Assembly: GCA_013867335.1 (NCBI GenBank)
Contig: JACEMX010000161.1
Coordinates: 1-39,349, forward strand
Direction of reading: 5' to 3'
DNA from: Candidatus Nitrosomaritimum aestuariumsis
Lineage (GTDB): Archaea > Thermoproteota > Nitrososphaeria > Nitrososphaerales > Nitrosopumilaceae
DNA: 39,349 nt
Made by a program: the position numbers and the translations under genes. This document shows positions 27,370 through 37,544 of this stretch, in pieces. The first letter of the stretch is position 1, and the number at the start of each line of letters is the position of its first letter. A model generated the notes under the pieces. It did no database searches and had not been told where the DNA came from. It worked only from the letters and a program-made list of their open reading frames with translations.

Positions 27370-28407
27370 CTACATCTTAGGATCAAAGCCTTTTGCCAAT
27401 CTTAAGGCATCCACCAAACCATCTGCATACCCGATACTAAGTATGGCAACTTCATCTTGACCGTCTTCTAGAAATTTTTCTGCATCTCGAATGTATAGCT
27501 CTGCGTTTTCCAAAATTATCTGATATTCCTTTTGTCCTTTGTAGTGAGGCTCTATCTCTTCTAGAGCTTCGCGAACCATTGGAACATATTTTTTCATCAT
27601 TTGAATTGAAATCTTTTCTGTCTTCTCAGAATTATCTGTGGGTTCATCAAGACAATCTCCCAATATTTTCAGAGCATCTGATTCTGTAAAGTGAAGTCTT
27701 CCTGTAATTATTACGGTATGTGGTGGTTTGCCAAAATCCATTTTTTTTAGGCTAGATATTTTTCCTGAAATAATTGATTGATTTGCAAATCCAATTCTTG
27801 AGGCCACCACTGCATAAGTTGACGAATCAATAACGTTTCGTTTCTGCCCCTTTTCGGTTTCTACTAGTCCCATCAGTGCATCTTTTGGATCCAAGAAGAA
27901 ATCTTTGTCTTGATTATATTCTAAGAGCAAAACAGTGTGATTTCCCTCGATGATATTTTTGTAAATTACATAGTATGGAGTGGTAAGTGATTTCATCTCA
28001 CTCATTATTGTTGCAATTCTTCCAACTTTGTAAAAATGAAGGCCACACTCCCCTATCATTGAAGTCAAAGAAGAAGATGCATGAATTGATTTTGTTTTTA
28101 TTTTCTCTTCGATGGCTCTGGTGCGTAGTTCTATGTGGGTTGTGGCAATGTATGGGTCACCATAAGATAGAAGAACAACTTTATTTCTTTTCGCGTTTTT
28201 TAAAATCTCATTCCCATCTTCTACTAGCCATCTTTTTGCAGGTCTGAAATCTCCTTTTGTCATTTTTTTAATCTTTGACAAGTCAGATTTTCCAATAGGG
28301 CTAGTAAATTGTTCAAGATAAATGATGTCTGCCTTTGCTAAAACCTCTTGGGCCTCAAGCGGTATTGATTTTGCACCGGAAATTCCTAGGCCAACAAACC
28401 AAAGCAT
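27370..28407 (-). CDS. dphB: Diphthine synthase
   Basis: MLWFVGLGISGAKSIPLEAQEVLAKADIIYLEQFTSPIG..VVLLSYGDPYIATTHIELRTRA: SAM-dependent tetrapyrrole-methylase fold, DphB signature. Confidence 0.94.
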   Translation of the reverse strand: MLWFVGLGISGAKSIPLEAQEVLAKADIIYLEQFTSPIGKSDLSKIKKMTKGDFRPAKRWLVEDGNEILKNAKRNKVVLLSYGDPYIATTHIELRTRAIEEKIKTKSIHASSSLTSMIGECGLHFYKVGRIATIMSEMKSLTTPYYVIYKNIIEGNHTVLLLEYNQDKDFFLDPKDALMGLVETEKGQKRNVIDSSTYAVVASRIGFANQSIISGKISSLKKMDFGKPPHTVIITGRLHFTESDALKILGDCLDEPTDNSEKTEKISIQMMKKYVPMVREALEEIEPHYKGQKEYQIILENAELYIRDAEKFLEDGQDEVAILSIGYADGLVDALRLAKGFDPKM

Positions 28408-29540
28408 TACTGTATCTTCATTTTTCTATCGTGAAGTCGTTTCAAATGTTGTAAAGTTTTCTTTAAGATTTCAATCCCTCGAAGGTACTCATCAATTGAG
28501 ACCTTTTCATCTATTGTATGTGCTTCGTGAGGATCCCCTGGACCATAGGTTACAACAGGAATGTTCCATTGGTTTCCAATGACATTCATGTCTCCAGTTC
28601 CTGTTTTACGAATTAATGTTGGTCTGGAATGTTCTACTTCCATTACACCTAAGGTAAAGGCTCTGACAATTGGTGAGTTATGTGGTGCCTCAAAAGGTTC
28701 AGTCTCATCAAGTATGGAGTAAAATGCCTCAATCTGTCTTCTTTCAGAAATTTCCTTTACTAGTGTGGCAATTTTTTGTTCAACTGATTTACAGTTCATG
28801 TCTACTGGAATTCTGATATCCATTGTTGCCACGCACTCTTTTGGTGTAACGTTGTGGCTTGTTCCTCCAGTGATCTCAGTTAGCGTTGCAGTAAGCAACA
28901 TTCCCTTGGTTTTTTCTTCTTGTCCACTTTCAAGTCCTTGTTTGAGCTCATTTGTAAAAATCATGGATTCTTCTATGGCGTTTTTTGAGAGCCATGGAGC
29001 ACTAGCATGAGAACTATCCTCTGCTGTAATTTTTAGATTAATTGCCAATCTTCCTTTGTATGCTATTGTCACTTGTTTGATACCGCTTGGCTCGCCGAAA
29101 ATAGCGTAATCAATATCCATCTCTTTTTTGACTAAATTTTTAATCCCAGTGGCATTTCCTTCTTCATCTACTGCGCCAACAAAAATTACTGTCCCATTGT
29201 TATTTTGAATAGAAGCTGCTGCAAAAAGCATGGCCATCAAAGGTGCTTTTGCATCTGAGGCACCTCTTCCATAAAGTGAATCTCCTTCTTTTCTTACCTT
29301 TACTTTTCCAGGTACGACATCCATGTGACCGCACAAGAGAATCTTTGGAGAGCCAGAGCCTTTCTTTGCCAAAATATTTCCAACCTCATCAATGTGAATA
29401 TCTTCAAAACCCAAATCATCACACTTGTCTGCGAGAAATTCTGCCATTGCTCTTTCGTTCAGTGATGGTGTATACAGACGAAGAGCTTTCTCAAGCATCT
29501 TTACTGCAAATCTTGGTGTTACTGTAAATGTCGTGTCCAA
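28407..29540 (-). CDS. lysK: LysW-aminoacyl carboxypeptidase/deacylase (LysK/ArgE-like, M20 family)
   Basis: ILLCGHMDVVPGKV, LYGRGASDAKAPL, FVGAVDEEGNATG, GTGDMNVIG: M20 metallopeptidase motifs; operon context with lysW/lysX. TTG start. Confidence 0.88.
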   Translation of the reverse strand: MDTTFTVTPRFAVKMLEKALRLYTPSLNERAMAEFLADKCDDLGFEDIHIDEVGNILAKKGSGSPKILLCGHMDVVPGKVKVRKEGDSLYGRGASDAKAPLMAMLFAAASIQNNNGTVIFVGAVDEEGNATGIKNLVKKEMDIDYAIFGEPSGIKQVTIAYKGRLAINLKITAEDSSHASAPWLSKNAIEESMIFTNELKQGLESGQEEKTKGMLLTATLTEITGGTSHNVTPKECVATMDIRIPVDMNCKSVEQKIATLVKEISERRQIEAFYSILDETEPFEAPHNSPIVRAFTLGVMEVEHSRPTLIRKTGTGDMNVIGNQWNIPVVTYGPGDPHEAHTIDEKVSIDEYLRGIEILKKTLQHLKRLHDRKMKIQ

Positions 29541-29543
29541 TTC

Positions 29544-30392
29544 TTACTTGCCAGATTGCATTGCATAGTCAAGCATTAATGAAGGTATATCAACATCACA
29601 AACTCTGACAGTGTTTTTGTATTCAGTAGTGTTGTTTACCTCGTGAACTACTAATCCTCGTTCGTCACTTTCCATCAGGTCTACACCAACTATTTGGCCT
29701 TGTACGGCATCTTTTGCTTTAATGCACATCTCCTCCATCTCTTGGGTGACTGGGCATGGGGTTGCAGTTCCTCCCAAGGCCATATTTGTTTTCCAATTTC
29801 CATCACCGGAAGTTCTGTAAATTGCCGCAACAATTTTGTCTCCAACCATTATGGCTCTAATGTCTCTGGGAGGTCTTTGAACAAATTCCTCCAAATAATG
29901 AACTTGATAAATTGGATACATTTTTTCTCGGCTCTCGATAATGCCATCTGCGGAGTCTTTGTCGTTTAATTTTGAAATTAATCTTCCCCAACTTCCTACT
30001 GTTGGTTTTATGACTTTGGGATACCCTTGAATGTCTAGTGCTTCTATGGCCGCATCTTTGGAAAATGCGACAGTTGCATCAGGTGTTGGCACTCCATGTT
30101 TTTTCAACAGCATGTGGGTAAACAACTTGTTTCCGGCAAATATCCCTGTGTTAAGGCAATTGATTACATTTACACCAAGACCTTCAAGAGCTGCAGTAGA
30201 GTGAAGGTTTCTGTAATAGCTTACACACCTCTGAATTACAGTTCCATAGTCTTCTGGTTTTTTCTCTAAATCTAAAAATAATTTTTTACAATCGACCATC
30301 TGGATATTGATATTCTTTTTTTTTCCAGCTTCTAGTAGAGCTTTTTCTTCCCATCGGATGGTATCGTAAAGAATCGTTACGTCAGGATTCAC
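29544..30392 (-). CDS. lysX: LysW ligase, RimK-like ATP-grasp (probable alpha-aminoadipate ligase LysX)
   Basis: ATP-grasp: GYPKVIKPTVGSWGRLISKL, FVQRPPRDIRAIMVGD, VGVDLMESDERGLVVHEVNNTTEYKN. GTG start at 30392 overlaps the lysW TGA (GTGA); ORF track used TTG 30401. Confidence 0.88.
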   Translation of the reverse strand: MNPDVTILYDTIRWEEKALLEAGKKKNINIQMVDCKKLFLDLEKKPEDYGTVIQRCVSYYRNLHSTAALEGLGVNVINCLNTGIFAGNKLFTHMLLKKHGVPTPDATVAFSKDAAIEALDIQGYPKVIKPTVGSWGRLISKLNDKDSADGIIESREKMYPIYQVHYLEEFVQRPPRDIRAIMVGDKIVAAIYRTSGDGNWKTNMALGGTATPCPVTQEMEEMCIKAKDAVQGQIVGVDLMESDERGLVVHEVNNTTEYKNTVRVCDVDIPSLMLDYAMQSGK

Positions 30393-30556
30393 TGTCCCCA
30401 ATCCTCGCCAACCGTTTGGGCCGGCTTTAGATCGAAACCATCTGAACCTTTTGCTAATTCAAAACTTGCACCGCATTCGGGACATGTTACGATTTCTCCT
30501 TCTAAAGCATCGCTTGGTATGGAGATATCTGCATCACATTCATCGCATTTTGCCAT
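30389..30556 (-). CDS. lysW: LysW amino-group carrier protein with atypical C-terminus (EDWGQ)
   Basis: Manual translation: MAKCDECDADISIPSDALEGEIVTCPECGASFELAKGSDGFDLKPAQTVGEDWGQ* (55 aa). Start overlaps the upstream synthase stop (TAATG) and end overlaps lysX (GTGA). Absent from the ORF track. Confidence 0.93.
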   Translation of the reverse strand: MAKCDECDADISIPSDALEGEIVTCPECGASFELAKGSDGFDLKPAQTVGEDWGQ

Positions 30557-31746
30557 TATTTTTCCTCGGGTTTTTCTTTTTTGTCGTCATTAATTATCTT
30601 TTTTTCGAGTCTGTCTGCTAATGGAATTTCAATAAGATCCCCCATTCGTAAGTTCTTCAAACCTGTTGCAACGGCTTTTGCAGACTCGCTGTCTTTTTCG
30701 AGCCCTAAAATGGACATCAAATAAGACGCACCTGTTTTTCCTGCAAGCTCCCCGAAAACAATCCTCCTTCGGTTACCCACTGTTCTTGGTGGAATAGGCT
30801 CATAGGCTGCTGGGTTTCTGAGAATTGCAGCCAGGTGGGTTCCTGCTTTGTGCTTGTATGCTGAGCTTCCAACAATGGGCTTTGAATCATACGGCTTGAT
30901 TATTGTATATTCTTCAATTAATCGAGACAAGTCTTGAAGCATGTCCAGTCTAAAGTCATTTGGAGATTTGTAGAGGTAAGTCAATGCCACTGAAACTTCT
31001 GCAAGTGATGGAATTCCAGTTCTCTCACCTATTCCGTCAATTGTAGTGTGTATTTGATCTACTCCACCGTCACATGCAGCAAAAGCATTTGCAAGTGCAA
31101 ATCCAATATCATTGTGTACATGTGCATCAAGTGGTGTGTCTACTGCTGACCTGACTTTTTTTACAAAATTATACATTCCCACTGGACGTAGGATTCCTAC
31201 AGTATCTGGAAGACTGATTCTGTCCACACCTGCTTCTTCTATCGCTCTGCACATCTTTAAGAGAAATTCTGGCTCTGCTCTGCTTCCATCTTCAACTGTA
31301 AATCTAATTTTTAATCCATGAGACTTTGCATACTCTACTGTTTCTACTGCCCTTTCCATTGCTTGCTGCCTTGTGATTCGAAGTTTGTCTTTCAGGTGAA
31401 TGTCTGAAATACCAAGATAAGCTGCACACCATTTTGCATCGCAGCTCAGAGAAACATCGATGTCTTCTTTGAGTGCTCGTCCATGAGAAACAATATCTGC
31501 ATTAAGGCCCTGCTTGATGATTGTTTTTACTGCTTCTTTATGATCATCAGATACAACCGGAGAAATTTCAATTTGGTCTACTCCAAAATAATCTAACATC
31601 CATGCAATCTGTATTCTCTGCTTGTTGGTAAAAGAAACTCCTGGGTGTTGTTCTCCTTCTCTTAGAGTGCTATCAAGAACTCTAATCTTCTTTGGATTCT
31701 TTTCATACGAGTTGTACAAATCTGCATAGTAATTCGGATCCTTCAT
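30556..31746 (-). CDS. Homocitrate synthase-like (isopropylmalate/homocitrate synthase family)
   Basis: IRVLDSTLREGEQHPGVSFTNKQRIQIAWMLDYFGVDQIEI..DAHVHNDIGFALANAFAACDGGVDQIHTTIDGIGERTGIPSLAEV..SAYKHKAGTHLAAIL. Confidence 0.9.
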   Translation of the reverse strand: MKDPNYYADLYNSYEKNPKKIRVLDSTLREGEQHPGVSFTNKQRIQIAWMLDYFGVDQIEISPVVSDDHKEAVKTIIKQGLNADIVSHGRALKEDIDVSLSCDAKWCAAYLGISDIHLKDKLRITRQQAMERAVETVEYAKSHGLKIRFTVEDGSRAEPEFLLKMCRAIEEAGVDRISLPDTVGILRPVGMYNFVKKVRSAVDTPLDAHVHNDIGFALANAFAACDGGVDQIHTTIDGIGERTGIPSLAEVSVALTYLYKSPNDFRLDMLQDLSRLIEEYTIIKPYDSKPIVGSSAYKHKAGTHLAAILRNPAAYEPIPPRTVGNRRRIVFGELAGKTGASYLMSILGLEKDSESAKAVATGLKNLRMGDLIEIPLADRLEKKIINDDKKEKPEEK

Positions 31747-31862: not shown

Positions 31863-32282
31863 TTAGACTATTTTTCTTAAAATTATTACCGTATTGGTAT
31901 CAATAACCCCTGGAATCTTTCTTAACGCATCAATACTATTGTTAATCTCTGCAATGTTTGATGCACTGATAATTGTTGTAATATCATACTGCCCTGTAAT
32001 TTCGTAAACTGTCTTGACTCCTTCTAGTTTTGCAAGTTTTACTGAAACTTTTGATGTGTCAGTTGCAGAATCAACTGAAACTAGAACTATTGCGCTGGTT
32101 ACATTTTCTTCTCCAAGCTCTAAAGTAAATCTCTTGATTGCACCTGTGTCTACTAAATTTTTAACCCGCCTTCTAACTGCTGATTCTGAAAGCTTTAGTT
32201 TCTTTCCAATATCTACAAAAGACTCTCTGGAATTTTCTCTAAGAAAATCAATAATTTTTTCGTCTACTTTATCCTTGAACAC
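31863..32282 (-). CDS. Lrp/AsnC-family regulator (LysM-like candidate)
   Basis: KIIDFLRENSRESFVDIGKKLKLSESAVRRRVKNLVDTGAIKRFTLEL..KTVYEITGQYDITTIISASNIAEINNSIDALRKIPGV: HTH + RAM domain. Confidence 0.92.
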   Translation of the reverse strand: MFKDKVDEKIIDFLRENSRESFVDIGKKLKLSESAVRRRVKNLVDTGAIKRFTLELGEENVTSAIVLVSVDSATDTSKVSVKLAKLEGVKTVYEITGQYDITTIISASNIAEINNSIDALRKIPGVIDTNTVIILRKIV

Positions 32283-33450
32283 TTCTTTTCTTCTCCTCTT
32301 CTGTAAGTACAGAATCTAAGGCTTGTAAAACTTTTGTTATATCTTCTTCAGTTATTACTAGAGGGGGAAGAATTCTCAGAATATTTCTACCAGAATAAAG
32401 CATCAAAACTCCCTCTTTGATTAAATTCATCAGTATGTCTCTTACCTCAAACTTTAACTCTACTCCTATCATTAGGCCTTTGCCTCTTATTTCTCTGATT
32501 ATCGCATGCTTTTCTTTTAGTTTCTCAAGTCCTTCTCTGAAAATTTTTCCCATCTTTTCAGAATTTTCAATCAAACCATCTTCAGTTATGGCTTTGAGAG
32601 CTGCCACTCCTGCAGCACATGATAATGGGTTTCCTCCAAACGTTGAGGAGTGTTCACCCTTGCTAATTGATGCCAAAATATCTGGTCTTACAAGTGTGGC
32701 GCCCATTGGGACTCCTCCTGCAATTCCTTTTGCAAGGCACATGATGTCAGGAGCTGTATTCCAGTGATCACAAGCCCATAATCGTCCAGTTCTTCCTAGA
32801 CCTGCCTGAATTTCGTCAAAAATTAAAAGAATTCCTTTCTCATCGCACAACTTTCTTACTTCCTGTAGGAATCCATCAGGTGCAACAACTATCCCGCTTT
32901 CTCCTTGAATTGGCTCTAAAATCACAAATGCAGTGTCATCATCAATTACTGAGCGGAGGGATTCCATATCTCCGTATGATGCAAAAGATACTTTTTCTAC
33001 TAATGGTGCAAATGCTTTTTTGTATTTTGGATTAAATGTTAATGATAATGCTCCGAAGGATTTTCCATGGTAGGAGCCTTTCATTGCAACCATTCCTTTT
33101 TTGCCAGTAAACTTTCTTGCAAATTTCATTGCAGCTTCTACAGCTTCTGCTCCACTATTGTTTAGATGAACCTGTGTTAGATTTTTTGGTGCAAGACCAA
33201 TCAGTGTTTTGAGAAACTCTTCTCTTGTTTTGTTATAAAGAGAACTGTGAACTGTAATGATTTTGTCAACTTGTTCTTTAATTGCTTTGTTTACTCTATC
33301 ATTCTGATGTCCGACAAGTGCAACGCCATAGCCTCCCATACAATCAATGTACTCTTTTCCATCAGTATCCCAAACATGGGCTCCTTTTCCTTTCTCAACT
33401 GTTACTGGAAATCTCTGATAGAGGTTTCCCATAAATTGGTCTTCACTCAT
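32269..33450 (-). CDS. lysJ: LysW-aminoadipate semialdehyde / acetylornithine aminotransferase
   Basis: Class III PLP aminotransferase: LILFDEIQAGLGRTGRLWACDHWNTAPDIMCLAKGIAGGVPMGATLV..STFGGNPLSCAAG. Confidence 0.93.
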   Translation of the reverse strand: MSEDQFMGNLYQRFPVTVEKGKGAHVWDTDGKEYIDCMGGYGVALVGHQNDRVNKAIKEQVDKIITVHSSLYNKTREEFLKTLIGLAPKNLTQVHLNNSGAEAVEAAMKFARKFTGKKGMVAMKGSYHGKSFGALSLTFNPKYKKAFAPLVEKVSFASYGDMESLRSVIDDDTAFVILEPIQGESGIVVAPDGFLQEVRKLCDEKGILLIFDEIQAGLGRTGRLWACDHWNTAPDIMCLAKGIAGGVPMGATLVRPDILASISKGEHSSTFGGNPLSCAAGVAALKAITEDGLIENSEKMGKIFREGLEKLKEKHAIIREIRGKGLMIGVELKFEVRDILMNLIKEGVLMLYSGRNILRILPPLVITEEDITKVLQALDSVLTEEEKKRSVQG

Positions 33451-34246
33451 GTTGAATCACCGTACAGTTATCATGAGAAATTGCTGCAGATATAGGATTT
33501 TCTTTCTGACCATTTGCAATCAAAGCCTCTTTTACTCCCATGTCTAATGCTTCAGTTGATGCTAGGATTTTTTTCTCCATTCCGGGACCAATTTTTGGCC
33601 TGATTTCTTTTGCTTCTGCAAGAGTTAGTTTAGTTACCAGTTTGTCATCCATCAAAAGCCCATCTACATTTGTGATGAAAAGCACCTTGTCAGTTCCTAC
33701 TCTTCCTGCCACATATGCTGCAGCTCTGTCCCCATCTACATTGAGAAATTCAGACTCTTCGCTTATTGCAATGGGGGAGATGACTGGAGTGAGGCCTTGA
33801 TCAAGCAAGGATTTGATTAATTCTGAATTAATTTGACGAATTTTACCTGTGTATCCTCCATCAATTGCCTGTTTTCGGCCTTTTTCATTTACGATTAGTA
33901 GCTTCTTTTTTCTTTCTGCCTGTATCACTTTGGCATCTACTCCGGACAAACCAATTGCATTAACTCCATTTTTTTGAAGCATCTGAACTATTGTCTTGTT
34001 TATTCGTCCGGCCATAACCATGGTAAAAATTTCAGCAGTTTCTTTGTCTGTATACCTGCTTTTGATTCCGCTGGGGGATGTGACAAACTTTGGTTCTTTC
34101 CCTAACTGTTCGCAAACTTTGGTGACTTCCTTTCCTCCGCCATGAACAATAATCACTCCTTCTGTTTCTGCAACTTTTTTGATATCTAAAATTGTTGAAG
34201 GATGTAAGTTATCTACCACACTTCCACCGATTTTGATTGTAATCAT
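33443..34246 (-). CDS. lysZ: LysW-aminoadipate/glutamate kinase
   Basis: Amino-acid kinase: MITIKIGGSVVDN, VIIVHGGGKEV, LNVDGDRAAAYVAGRVGTDKVLFITNVDGLL. Confidence 0.93.
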   Translation of the reverse strand: MITIKIGGSVVDNLHPSTILDIKKVAETEGVIIVHGGGKEVTKVCEQLGKEPKFVTSPSGIKSRYTDKETAEIFTMVMAGRINKTIVQMLQKNGVNAIGLSGVDAKVIQAERKKKLLIVNEKGRKQAIDGGYTGKIRQINSELIKSLLDQGLTPVISPIAISEESEFLNVDGDRAAAYVAGRVGTDKVLFITNVDGLLMDDKLVTKLTLAEAKEIRPKIGPGMEKKILASTEALDMGVKEALIANGQKENPISAAISHDNCTVIQHE

Positions 34247-34248
34247 TT

Positions 34249-35295
34249 CTAAACCGGTGTTAGTGGTGTGTATCTTAAACCATCCATCTCATCGAATCCA
34301 CACATTACATTCATGTTCTGAATGGCTGAACCTGCAGCTCCTTTCATCAGGTTATCTGAAGCTGATAGGGCAATCAATCTATGATTGTCTTCATCCAAAT
34401 CAAATCCGATGTCACAAAAGTTTGAACCAACCAAGAACTTTGGATCTGGGAATTTGTATAATCCTTTTTTGTCTCTAATCAATCGGACAAATTTTTCTTC
34501 ACCATAAGTTTGACGATAAAGCTTCCACAATTCTTTTTCTTCAATATCTTTTTTCATAAATGTGTGATTGGTACATAATATTCCGCGTACTACATCTACT
34601 GCATGTGGGCTCATTGAAACGTGAATCTTTCTTCCTGCAATCTCACTTAGTTCTTGTTCGATTTCACCGGTGTGTCTATGTTTTGCAGGCTTGTATGGCC
34701 TGATAACTCCTGCTCGCATTGCATGCGCAGTACCAGAGCCTGAACCTGCTCCTGATGAGCCAATCTTAGAATCAACTACAATGTGCTCAGTATCAATCAG
34801 ATCATTTCGAATTAGTGGTGCTAGTGCTAGCATTGATGTTACTGCCATACAACCAGGGCATGATACAAGCTGTGCGTTTTTGATTTGTTCTCTGTGTAAT
34901 TCAGGAACTCCAAAAACAGAATTTTTCAAATAATCTGGATGTGGGTGCTCCCATCCATACCATTTATCGTAATCTTCAGGGGTGTGTAATCTATAATCTG
35001 CACTCAAATCAATAATTTTGATACCTCTGTCGTAGAGGGCCTTTACAATTTCAGTTGCTGTTCCATGTGGTACTGCAGTAAACACCAAATCACATTGGTC
35101 TGAAATTTTCTCGTAATCCATCTCTGAAAATGTTAGATCGGTAAATCCCTTCAAGCTTGGTTGAACTCTGTGCAAATACTCTCCGACATGCTGTCGTGAG
35201 GTTACCATGCTGATCTCAACGTCTGGGTGATTTACAAGTAAACGAAGGGTTTCTCCTCCTACATATCCTGAAGCGCCAACTACTCCTACTTTCAT
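34249..35295 (-). CDS. lysY: LysW-aminoadipyl/glutamyl phosphate reductase
   Basis: MKVGVVGASGYVGGETLRLLVNHPDVEI, VSCPGCMAVTSMLALAPL (catalytic Cys), HRHTGEIEQELSEIAGRKIHVSMSPHAVDVVRGI. Confidence 0.94.
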   Translation of the reverse strand: MKVGVVGASGYVGGETLRLLVNHPDVEISMVTSRQHVGEYLHRVQPSLKGFTDLTFSEMDYEKISDQCDLVFTAVPHGTATEIVKALYDRGIKIIDLSADYRLHTPEDYDKWYGWEHPHPDYLKNSVFGVPELHREQIKNAQLVSCPGCMAVTSMLALAPLIRNDLIDTEHIVVDSKIGSSGAGSGSGTAHAMRAGVIRPYKPAKHRHTGEIEQELSEIAGRKIHVSMSPHAVDVVRGILCTNHTFMKKDIEEKELWKLYRQTYGEEKFVRLIRDKKGLYKFPDPKFLVGSNFCDIGFDLDEDNHRLIALSASDNLMKGAAGSAIQNMNVMCGFDEMDGLRYTPLTPV

Positions 35296-35323: not shown

Positions 35324-36181
35324 TTATTTCCTAATGCAACTCAAAGCGTATTCTACCATAGCTTTTGGAATATTTCTCTTGGAGACTCTTGCCAATCCCT
35401 TAAACTCTACAGTGTTGTTGACTTCGTGAACCACTAGTCCTGTTTTTTCATCTTCCATCATGTCAATTCCCAAAATACCTCCGCCCATTGCCTTTGAGGC
35501 CTTTACTGCAATATCCTCCATTTCTTTTGTGATCTCACAGAGTTCTGGGTCTGCCCCAAGTGCAATGTTTGTCTTAAATCCCTCTGATGACTTTCTGTAC
35601 ATTGCAGCAATTGGCTCATCACCTACGGTAATTACACGAATATCTCTTGGGGGTCTTTGGATTAACTCTTGAAGGTAGTAAATTCTATCATGTGGGCCAT
35701 CATTTATGTCTCTAATTTCCATTATGGCATCAGCAGTATCCTTGTCTTTAAGAGGCATGACTCCCCGGCCCCAACTTCCAATTAATGGTTTGATTACAAG
35801 TGGGTATCCAACTTTTTCTAGATTTTCTAATGCACTTTCACTTGAAAATGAAAAGTATGTCTTTGGAGTTGGAACATTGTGTTTTTTTAATCTCAGTGTC
35901 ATAATCATCTTGTTGCCACAAATGTTTGCCACATCATACGAGTTTATGGTTGGAACATCCATAAACTCTAGACTGGACGTAAAGTGCAACCCTCTAAAAT
36001 AACTCACACATCTTTCTAAAACAACATCTCCAAGATCATAATCTTCTTTTTTACTATCTGTGTTAATTTTGGTGATTTTGGCATCAAGCATCGATGTATC
36101 GCATCCAAGATCAGATGCTTCCTTTTGGAGCATCTTCTCTTCGGACCTTAATCGGTCAAAGACGATACAGACTTTTGACAT
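35324..36181 (-). CDS. argX: LysW ligase, RimK-like ATP-grasp (probable glutamate ligase ArgX)
   Basis: GYPLVIKPLIGSWGRGVMPLKDKD, LIQRPPRDIRVITVGDEPIAAMYR, GIDMMEDEKTGLVVHEVNNTVEFKG; operon with argG. Confidence 0.88.
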   Translation of the reverse strand: MSKVCIVFDRLRSEEKMLQKEASDLGCDTSMLDAKITKINTDSKKEDYDLGDVVLERCVSYFRGLHFTSSLEFMDVPTINSYDVANICGNKMIMTLRLKKHNVPTPKTYFSFSSESALENLEKVGYPLVIKPLIGSWGRGVMPLKDKDTADAIMEIRDINDGPHDRIYYLQELIQRPPRDIRVITVGDEPIAAMYRKSSEGFKTNIALGADPELCEITKEMEDIAVKASKAMGGGILGIDMMEDEKTGLVVHEVNNTVEFKGLARVSKRNIPKAMVEYALSCIRK

Positions 36182-36348
36182 TACTCTCCCCAGTCTTCGC
36201 CTACACTTTCTGCTTGTTTTAGCACAACATTTGATCCGTCTTTACTTGCGATTTCAAAGTCTGCACCACAATCAGGGCAGGAGACAATTTCTCCAACTGA
36301 GGCGTCGTCTGGGATGTTTAGAGTTGCATCACATTCTGGGCAGTTCAT
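36181..36348 (-). CDS. lysW: LysW amino-group carrier protein with canonical C-terminus (EDWGE)
   Basis: Manual translation: MNCPECDATLNIPDDASVGEIVSCPDCGADFEIASKDGSNVVLKQAESVGEDWGE* (55 aa); overlaps argG stop (ATGA) and argX start (TAATG). Absent from the ORF track. Confidence 0.95.
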   Translation of the reverse strand: MNCPECDATLNIPDDASVGEIVSCPDCGADFEIASKDGSNVVLKQAESVGEDWGE

Positions 36349-37544
36349 GTTTTTGTTGACCTCTTCTTTTGTAATTTATTAGCTTCTGTTGACTGCATTC
36401 CCCACAATTCTACGAATCCTTTGGCTAATCTCTGATCAAATGTTGATTCTGTGCCATATGTGGCAATCTCATGACTGTAAAGCGACTTTGAAGATTTTCG
36501 TCCAACAACTCTGACATTTCCCTTGAATAGTTTGAGTTTCACGGTTCCTGAAACTGTTTTTTGTGAGGCTTCAATAAATCCATCAAGATCATCTTTGAGT
36601 GGATCCTGCCAAAGCCCAGAATATACAAGATATGCCCATTCATCATCAATTAGCGACTTGAACTTGTTTTGGTGTTTTGTGTGGACCATTTTCTCCAAGT
36701 CCTGATGTGCCTCAATTAAGCAAGTGGCAGCAGGGGTCTCATACACTTCACGGGATTTTATCCCAACAACCCTGTCTTCGATGTGGTCTACAATTCCAAC
36801 ACCTGCATCTCCTGCCTTTTTGTTTAGATATTCAATTAGTTTTACCGCATCTAGTTTTTTTCCATCTACTGCAACTGGTACTCCTTTTTCAAATTTAATT
36901 TCCAAGTAAGTTGGTTTGTCCGGCAAGTTTTTTGTCTTAACCCAAATGAAGGCATCATCAGGTGGTTCGTTGTATGGGTCCTCTAATACTCCTCCTTCGA
37001 TTGCGCGGCCCCACAAGTTTTGATCAATGCTGAACTTTTTGGCAACAGTGTCAATTTGAATTCCGTGTTTGTCTGCAAATTTTAATTCAGTTTCCCTGTC
37101 TAGATTTTTGTCTCTGATTGGTGCAATAATTGGTAAATCAGAACCTGAACGAAGTGTGATGTCAAATCTTACTTGGTCATTTCCTTTTCCCGAACACCCG
37201 TGAGCAAGTGCTGTTACTTTTTCTTTTTTTGCAATCTCTAAAACTTTTTCAGCAATTAATGGTCTTGCAAGTGCAGTTGCCAAACAATATTTTTTTTGGT
37301 ATAGTGCATTTGCTTTAATTGAAGGAAAGATGTATTTTTCTGCAAATTCTTTTCTGGCATCAATGTTGTAGTGCTTTTTTACTCCAAGCTTTTTTGCTTT
37401 TGCTGCAATCTTTTTGTGATCATCACCTTGACCGACATCAACTGTAACTGTGATTACATCCATGTCGTGCTCTGCTTGTAAATATTTTACAACCACCGAC
37501 GTATCTAATCCTCCAGAAAATGCCAAAATTCCTTTTTGAGTCAT
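36345..37544 (-). CDS. argG: Argininosuccinate synthase
   Basis: GILAFSGGLDTSVVVKYLQAEHDMDVITVTVDVGQGDD, ALAHGCSGKGNDQVRFD, WGRAIEGGVLEDPYNEPPDDAF. Confidence 0.97.
   Translation of the reverse strand: MTQKGILAFSGGLDTSVVVKYLQAEHDMDVITVTVDVGQGDDHKKIAAKAKKLGVKKHYNIDARKEFAEKYIFPSIKANALYQKKYCLATALARPLIAEKVLEIAKKEKVTALAHGCSGKGNDQVRFDITLRSGSDLPIIAPIRDKNLDRETELKFADKHGIQIDTVAKKFSIDQNLWGRAIEGGVLEDPYNEPPDDAFIWVKTKNLPDKPTYLEIKFEKGVPVAVDGKKLDAVKLIEYLNKKAGDAGVGIVDHIEDRVVGIKSREVYETPAATCLIEAHQDLEKMVHTKHQNKFKSLIDDEWAYLVYSGLWQDPLKDDLDGFIEASQKTVSGTVKLKLFKGNVRVVGRKSSKSLYSHEIATYGTESTFDQRLAKGFVELWGMQSTEANKLQKKRSTKT

Follow-up and report, generated by a model that had tools for sequence, protein, structure and literature searches.

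A LysW amino-group carrier with an encoded C-terminal glutamine in ammonia-oxidising archaea: a possible pro-carrier activated by deamidation

The LysW pathway is taught as requiring a C-terminal glutamate on its carrier protein, and the question raised by the present locus is how a lysine operon can work when the carrier encoded in it ends in glutamine. The window, i.e., the whole stretch of DNA analysed (39,349 nucleotides; contig JACEMX010000161.1 of Candidatus Nitrosomaritimum aestuariumsis), holds two carrier genes, lysW-Q and argW, and these are the two clear LysW carriers of its genome. Translation bore out the preliminary description of the window, according to which the lysine-side LysW ends in EDWGQ, the LysW of the argG/argX side ends in EDWGE, and the last codons differ in one base; it was also right that a terminal Gln, which lacks the carboxylate used by LysX, needs explaining. 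In Thermus the substrate is gamma-linked to the C-terminal Glu of LysW and a free gamma-carboxylate is required (PMC10433800). The features of the locus are collected in Table 1.

Table 1: Positions in the window, strand and evidence for the genes of the lysine and arginine branches.
Feature	Position	Strand	Evidence
lysK, M20 metallo-hydrolase freeing the product from LysW; proposed deamidase	28407..29540	-	TIGR01902, 278 bits (cut-off 163); best PDB relative 5xoy, [LysW]-lysine hydrolase
lysX, ATP-grasp ligase loading LysW, GSWGR motif	29544..30392	-	TIGR02144, 322 bits; PDB relatives 3vpd, 5k2m, 3vpb
lysW-Q, lysine-side amino-group carrier LysW, 55 aa, two CxxC, C-terminus EDWGQ	30389..30556	-	translation; NF041070, 88.9 bits (cut-off 75); Pfam Zn_ribbon_LysW PF21344 over cut-off
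terminal sense codon CAG (Gln55), position where Glu normally bears the substrate	30392..30394	-	CAG conserved in Nitrosopumilaceae
homocitrate synthase-like (HMGL-like and HCS_D2 domains), directly upstream of lysW-Q	30556..31746	-	Pfam; NCBIfam TIGR02146, 372 bits, below cut-off 414
LysM-type Lrp/AsnC transcriptional regulator	31863..32282	-	NF040947, 192 bits (cut-off 180)
lysJ/argD-type aminotransferase, common to both branches	32269..33450	-	TIGR00707 over cut-off
lysZ, amino-acid kinase family	33443..34246	-	Pfam AA_kinase
lysY/argC-type semialdehyde dehydrogenase	34249..35295	-	Pfam Semialdhyde_dh and dimerisation domains
argX, second LysX-family ligase, adjoins the Glu-type carrier	35324..36181	-	TIGR02144, 301 bits, over cut-off
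argW, arginine-side carrier paralog, C-terminus EDWGE (VGEDWGE, then stop)	36181..36348	-	translation; NF041070, 91.5 bits
argG, adjoins argW	36345..37544	-	name from the preliminary description; BLAST partner conserved in most related loci

The lysW-Q protein has the LysW zinc-ribbon domain with both CxxC motifs (NF041070 and PF21344), and it and its paralog exceeded the cut-off of NCBIfam NF041070 (carrier_LysW_Arch); its gene lies beside the LysX ligase gene in the lysine operon, with lysK, lysM, lysJ, lysZ and lysY close by, and at the attachment residue, the C-terminal Glu of EDWGE, a Gln is encoded. The tail translated from the minus-strand ORF is VGEDWGQ, the codon CAG at 30394-30392 being followed by the stop TGA at 30391-30389; this stop is overlapped by the predicted GTG start of lysX (30392-30390; CA-GTG-A). 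The overlap was considered as the cause of the Gln and rejected: it explains the final G of the codon, but GAG would be equally suitable, and Gln was found without such an overlap in group g23 (CAG TAA) and in genome G256 (CAG TAA). The two carriers are ~58% identical overall, i.e., old paralogs and not a recent duplicate with a single mutation. In size, zinc ribbon and EDWG tail lysW-Q is like the LysW/ArgW carriers of Thermus, Sulfolobus and Thermococcus (NF041070, TIGR01206; PDB 3wwl, 3vpb, 5k2m), and its locus is like their operons in having LysX, LysK, LysZ, LysY and LysJ; unlike lysW-Q, the described members end in Glu. Directly downstream of lysK, a diphthine synthase gene (Dph5, with a C-terminal DUF357 domain; 27370-28407, minus strand) was observed.

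The conservation of the terminal Gln, proposed for checking in the preliminary description, was examined in related genomes. The same CAG codon was present in each of the eight genomes of the genus (that of the window and 7 others) in which the lysine-side gene could be read. A DNA pattern for EDWGQ plus stop, whose TRR term also admits TGG (the extra match of G256 at C1:1952672 is such a case and not a LysW), was matched in 277 of the 400 genomes sampled from the order; among genomes ≥90% complete and ≤5% contaminated the count was 168/209. The reversed control pattern gave almost no matches in the same 400 genomes, and the pattern for either end, Gln or Glu, matched 374/400. The pattern match in G445 sits elsewhere in its contig, and the true LysW of G445 ends in Glu. 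Close relatives thus do not all end in Glu; named records with the Gln end include Nitrosopumilus salaria BD31, Nitrosopumilus sp. Nsub, Nitrosarchaeum sp. BD3 and N. limneticus.

In the family of the window (f1; identified as Nitrosopumilaceae through named matches) the terminal residue is Gln on the lysine-side carrier and Glu on the arginine-side carrier, with few exceptions, and the same division was found in family f2 (group g23); in the large third family, f8, which is probably Nitrososphaeraceae, Gln occurs on both carriers, on the arginine side only, or on the lysine side only. No match of the Gln-end pattern was obtained in the remaining families of the order (f3-f7 and f9-f17). All end combinations across the two branches (Gln/Glu, Gln/Gln, Glu/Gln, Glu/Glu) occur in sister genomes. 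Outside the order but within the phylum, whole genera have one carrier, ending in Gln: a single Gln-ending carrier was found in all six tested g74 genomes and in members of g80, g101 and g117; viral contigs gave one weak partial LysW match. The gene order lysW-lysX-lysK-dph5 is kept in most f1 and f8 relatives. A LysW identical to that of the window occurs in JAICHE010000049.1 (L043), a metagenome-assembled genome labelled Nitrososphaeraceae, a label that is probably wrong. In the Gln-ending carriers of g74 and g101 (L309-L316), EH(D/E)ECG or EHEDCG replaces the second CxxC, a change that resembles the LysW chain of PDB 3vpb, which has three Cys.

A profile search identified closed genomes with no Glu-type carrier at all: G256, G287 and G294 have one LysW each, ending in EDWGQ, together with both ArgX and LysX, and G300, G322 and G324 have two LysW each, both ending in EDWGQ. 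A Glu-type paralog therefore cannot do the carrier work everywhere, and in these genomes the Gln-ending LysW must serve as carrier, unless the two pathways run in some other way. This finding, stronger than any other single result of the analysis, lay beyond the view of the preliminary description, which had treated the Gln as an oddity of one lysine-side carrier; the Gln is indeed there, but the trait is much wider and extends to both pathways, to several archaeal lineages and to actinobacterial clusters. As to gene content, the genus group of the three single-carrier genomes (g29; loci L212, L213, L214) seems to have lost argW; argX follows directly after argG, and the two pathways are left to share a single LysW that ends in Gln.

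Changes between Gln and Glu were counted on trees of the two ligases: at least seven on the LysX tree and at least two on the ArgX tree. Lysine-side Gln looks ancestral to f1, f2 and f8 on the LysX tree, and Glu then reappears in G147/G148/G113/G169, G161, G292, G328/G332/G340 and G342/G397. The last residue of 168 distinct proteins was EDWGQ-type in 111 and EDWGE-type in 57, with nothing else; in the last codon, 7 changes were found at base 1 and none at base 2. It follows that the gamma-carbonyl is what matters, and from the free combination of ends and their repeated exchange, that the two forms are interchangeable for the same enzymes. Within f1 the end changed twice in 94 lysine-side sequences and not once in 62 arginine-side sequences; third codon positions there showed a median of 12 and 10 changes, respectively, and the EDWG tail is invariant. 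With end changes so rare within a family, a neutral drift of Gln to Glu and back can be rejected; both ends look selected, and the sequences suggest that only residues with a gamma-carbonyl are tolerated; the encoded terminal Gln is an old, selected trait.

The motifs of the partner enzymes LysX and LysK are retained with either end of the carrier. The motif GSWGR, reported to recognise EDWGE (PMC10433800), is kept in 145/146 ligases beside Gln carriers and in 96/96 beside Glu carriers. Frequency differences in LysX between the Gln and Glu groups are dominated by phylogeny and were set aside. A LysK above the TIGR01902 cut-off was found in every one of the 31 genomes tested, usually as a single copy; that of the window, whose nearest solved relative is the Thermus enzyme 5xoy, is the only such gene found in its genome and encodes a TIGR01902-type M20 hydrolase whose active-site motifs are conserved. 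LysK was compared between Gln and Glu carriers by invariant residues: H72, D74, D96, E126, E127, E150 and H341 do not vary, whichever carrier is present, and include residues aligned with the active-site motifs of 5xoy.

Since the established reaction needs a free gamma-carboxylate, the Gln must lose its amide or the chemistry must differ; loss of the amide is the simpler option and accounts for Gln and Glu carriers sharing enzymes. LysW-Gln would be made as an inactive, amidated carrier; after translation the side-chain amide of the terminal Gln would be hydrolysed to give Glu and ammonia; LysX would then load alpha-aminoadipate onto the freed gamma-carboxyl, and LysZ, LysY and LysJ would convert the loaded alpha-aminoadipate; finally LysK would free lysine and regenerate LysW-Glu, one deamidation per carrier molecule being enough. 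LysK is the candidate deamidase because it already cleaves a gamma-amide at the same residue, and unmodified Gln has that same bond, ammonia standing where lysine would be. That deamidation takes place, by whatever enzyme, is in our judgement probable, and among the four explanations offered in the preliminary description it appears to fit best. For the fuller reading, by sequence and by analogy, in which LysW-Gln would be a working pro-carrier deamidated most likely by LysK, the chances seem about even. We know of no M20 enzyme acting on LysW-Gln, and Glu-only genomes have LysK just as regularly, so that its occurrence does not tell the readings apart. If the end were corrected by LysK at no cost, it should drift; the near-fixed ends (2/94 and 0/62 changes) mean that the Gln must confer some advantage for which the model gives no account. 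One speculation is that the carrier would be unloadable until LysK is present, and loaded intermediates would then not accumulate.

The amide may be removed by an agent other than LysK, either another amidase or slow spontaneous deamidation in hot habitats. All the evidence for interchangeable Gln and Glu applies equally here, a glutamine-amidotransferase-type hydrolase stands beside such carriers in Streptomyces and Rhodococcus, and other deamidase folds are conceivable; yet the search for two known protein-glutamine deamidase families, Pup_ligase/Dop (PF03136) and CheD, found the former in 0/16 genomes, with a positive Corynebacterium control, and CheD absent from 12 of the 16, including the window genome, G256, G287, G294 and the tested g74 genomes. 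Nor does any extra gene consistently stand beside lysW-Q in the related loci, as mapped by homologs of the window's own genes only. On this balance an agent other than LysK is unlikely, though still to be reckoned with.

A second alternative, confined to the family of the window, makes LysW-Gln a scaffold or regulator and lets the Glu-type ArgW carry both substrates. In this family one paralog keeps Gln and the other Glu, with very few changes, and one carrier can suffice: in G014 (L224; a 3.2-Mb single contig of the same family) the interval from the homocitrate synthase gene to lysX yielded no LysW, and the sole LysW found is of Glu type beside argX. Sister lineages, on the other hand, manage with Gln-type carriers only, the EDWG tail is constant, and on the lysine side two or more returns to Glu took place in the family while the operon stayed intact. 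The scaffold or decoy with a shared Glu-type LysW, as put forward in the preliminary description, thus fails in the closed Gln-only genomes, and could hold in the species of the window, which retains a Glu-type paralog, although we consider it improbable there.

Similarly improbable is that the Gln is never converted, LysX loading LysW-Gln through the side-chain amide, by transamidation or an amidine link, or through the alpha-carboxyl. Linkage to the alpha-carboxyl of the last residue would make the side chain irrelevant and so account for the equivalence of Gln and Glu; RimK-family ligases, which are related to LysX and appear among its PDB matches, act on C-terminal residues of proteins. 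Other last residues would then be expected, however, and the census of 168 proteins with an unchanged base 2 holds none; this option of the preliminary description is disfavoured on that ground. GSWGR and the other invariant LysX residues are unaltered as well, and in Thermus the bond is known to be a gamma linkage to the terminal Glu (PMC10433800), which leaves alpha linkage very improbable. As for direct use of the amide, LysX or a partner would activate the carboxamide with ATP and the amine would displace ammonia or form an amidine, with no free LysW-Glu. This fits the Gln/Glu-only census, and ATP activation of amides is known in enzymes such as PurL; against it, LysX is ~94% identical between sister species with Gln and Glu carriers, and among 930 residue states on the LysX tree none tracks the switch in all five supported contrasts, the best averaging 2.9 of 5 in a comparison of low power. 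The chance of direct amide use is slimmer still. If the Gln were never converted, lysine, and in some lineages arginine, would be made on a carrier bond new to the LysW family. A sequencing or assembly error or a strain mutation, the last option of the preliminary description, can be dismissed, the same codon and the EDWGQ pattern being conserved in hundreds of independent genomes, closed ones included, and nothing having been found in its favour.

Deamidation of an encoded terminal Gln, the preferred reading, has a counterpart in actinobacteria: Dop deamidates the C-terminal Gln of Pup and also cleaves Pup conjugates, and lineages with a Glu-ending Pup keep dop (PMC3511204). Pup-GGQ is likewise a small protein whose encoded C-terminal Gln must become Glu before the gamma-carboxyl is used, and both Pup and LysW occur in Gln and Glu forms in different lineages; that the conjugate-cleaving enzyme is also the deamidase holds for Dop and is only proposed for LysW. 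The proteins are unrelated, Pup tagging proteins for degradation, and Dop is a relative of glutamine synthetase, whereas the LysW candidate, LysK, is a zinc M20 hydrolase. Since no homolog of Pup ligase or Dop was found in the 16 archaeal genomes, this is not a Pup system, and the logic alone is common to both.

Actinobacterial plasmids carry LeuA-LysW-RimK-ArgC-kinase clusters in which, as at the lysW-Q locus, a LysW-like carrier has its own RimK-type ligase; the carrier ends in RDWGQ in Streptomyces and in RDWGE in Rhodococcus, the clusters being otherwise similar (L359, L363, L364, L365, L366) and likely to serve secondary metabolism. No lysK was present in the stretch seen, and a glutamine-amidotransferase/C26-type hydrolase with a GICGG nucleophile motif was found instead; the glutamine-amidotransferase fold handles gamma-amides. 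In two Streptomyces clusters with EDWGE carriers an M20 hydrolase is encoded beside the kinase gene, and in a third cluster several genes away. This pattern fits a releasing hydrolase that also handles the primary amide; the sample is small. The carrier gene of NZ_CP133193.1 is missing from the PLSDB gene table. In Staphylococcus epidermidis, a 54-kb plasmid (NZ_CP043848.1; L355) carries an EDWGE LysW adjoining a RimK-family ligase, where a carrier-protein pathway would hardly be expected.

A search of open-access papers turned up no mention of a LysW ending in Gln; most LysW biochemistry is in subscription journals. The LysW adopted in a metabolic model of N. maritimus is Nmar_1287, beside argX (PMC6038301). 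Annotation keyed to EDWGE overlooks a class of working carriers. Ammonia-oxidising archaea are among the most abundant cells in sea and soil, and with Gln in every copy in some of them, the synthesis of lysine, and probably of arginine, should need an activation step outside the accepted pathway. Deamidation, if it takes place, would give the Pup/Dop principle a second and unrelated example.
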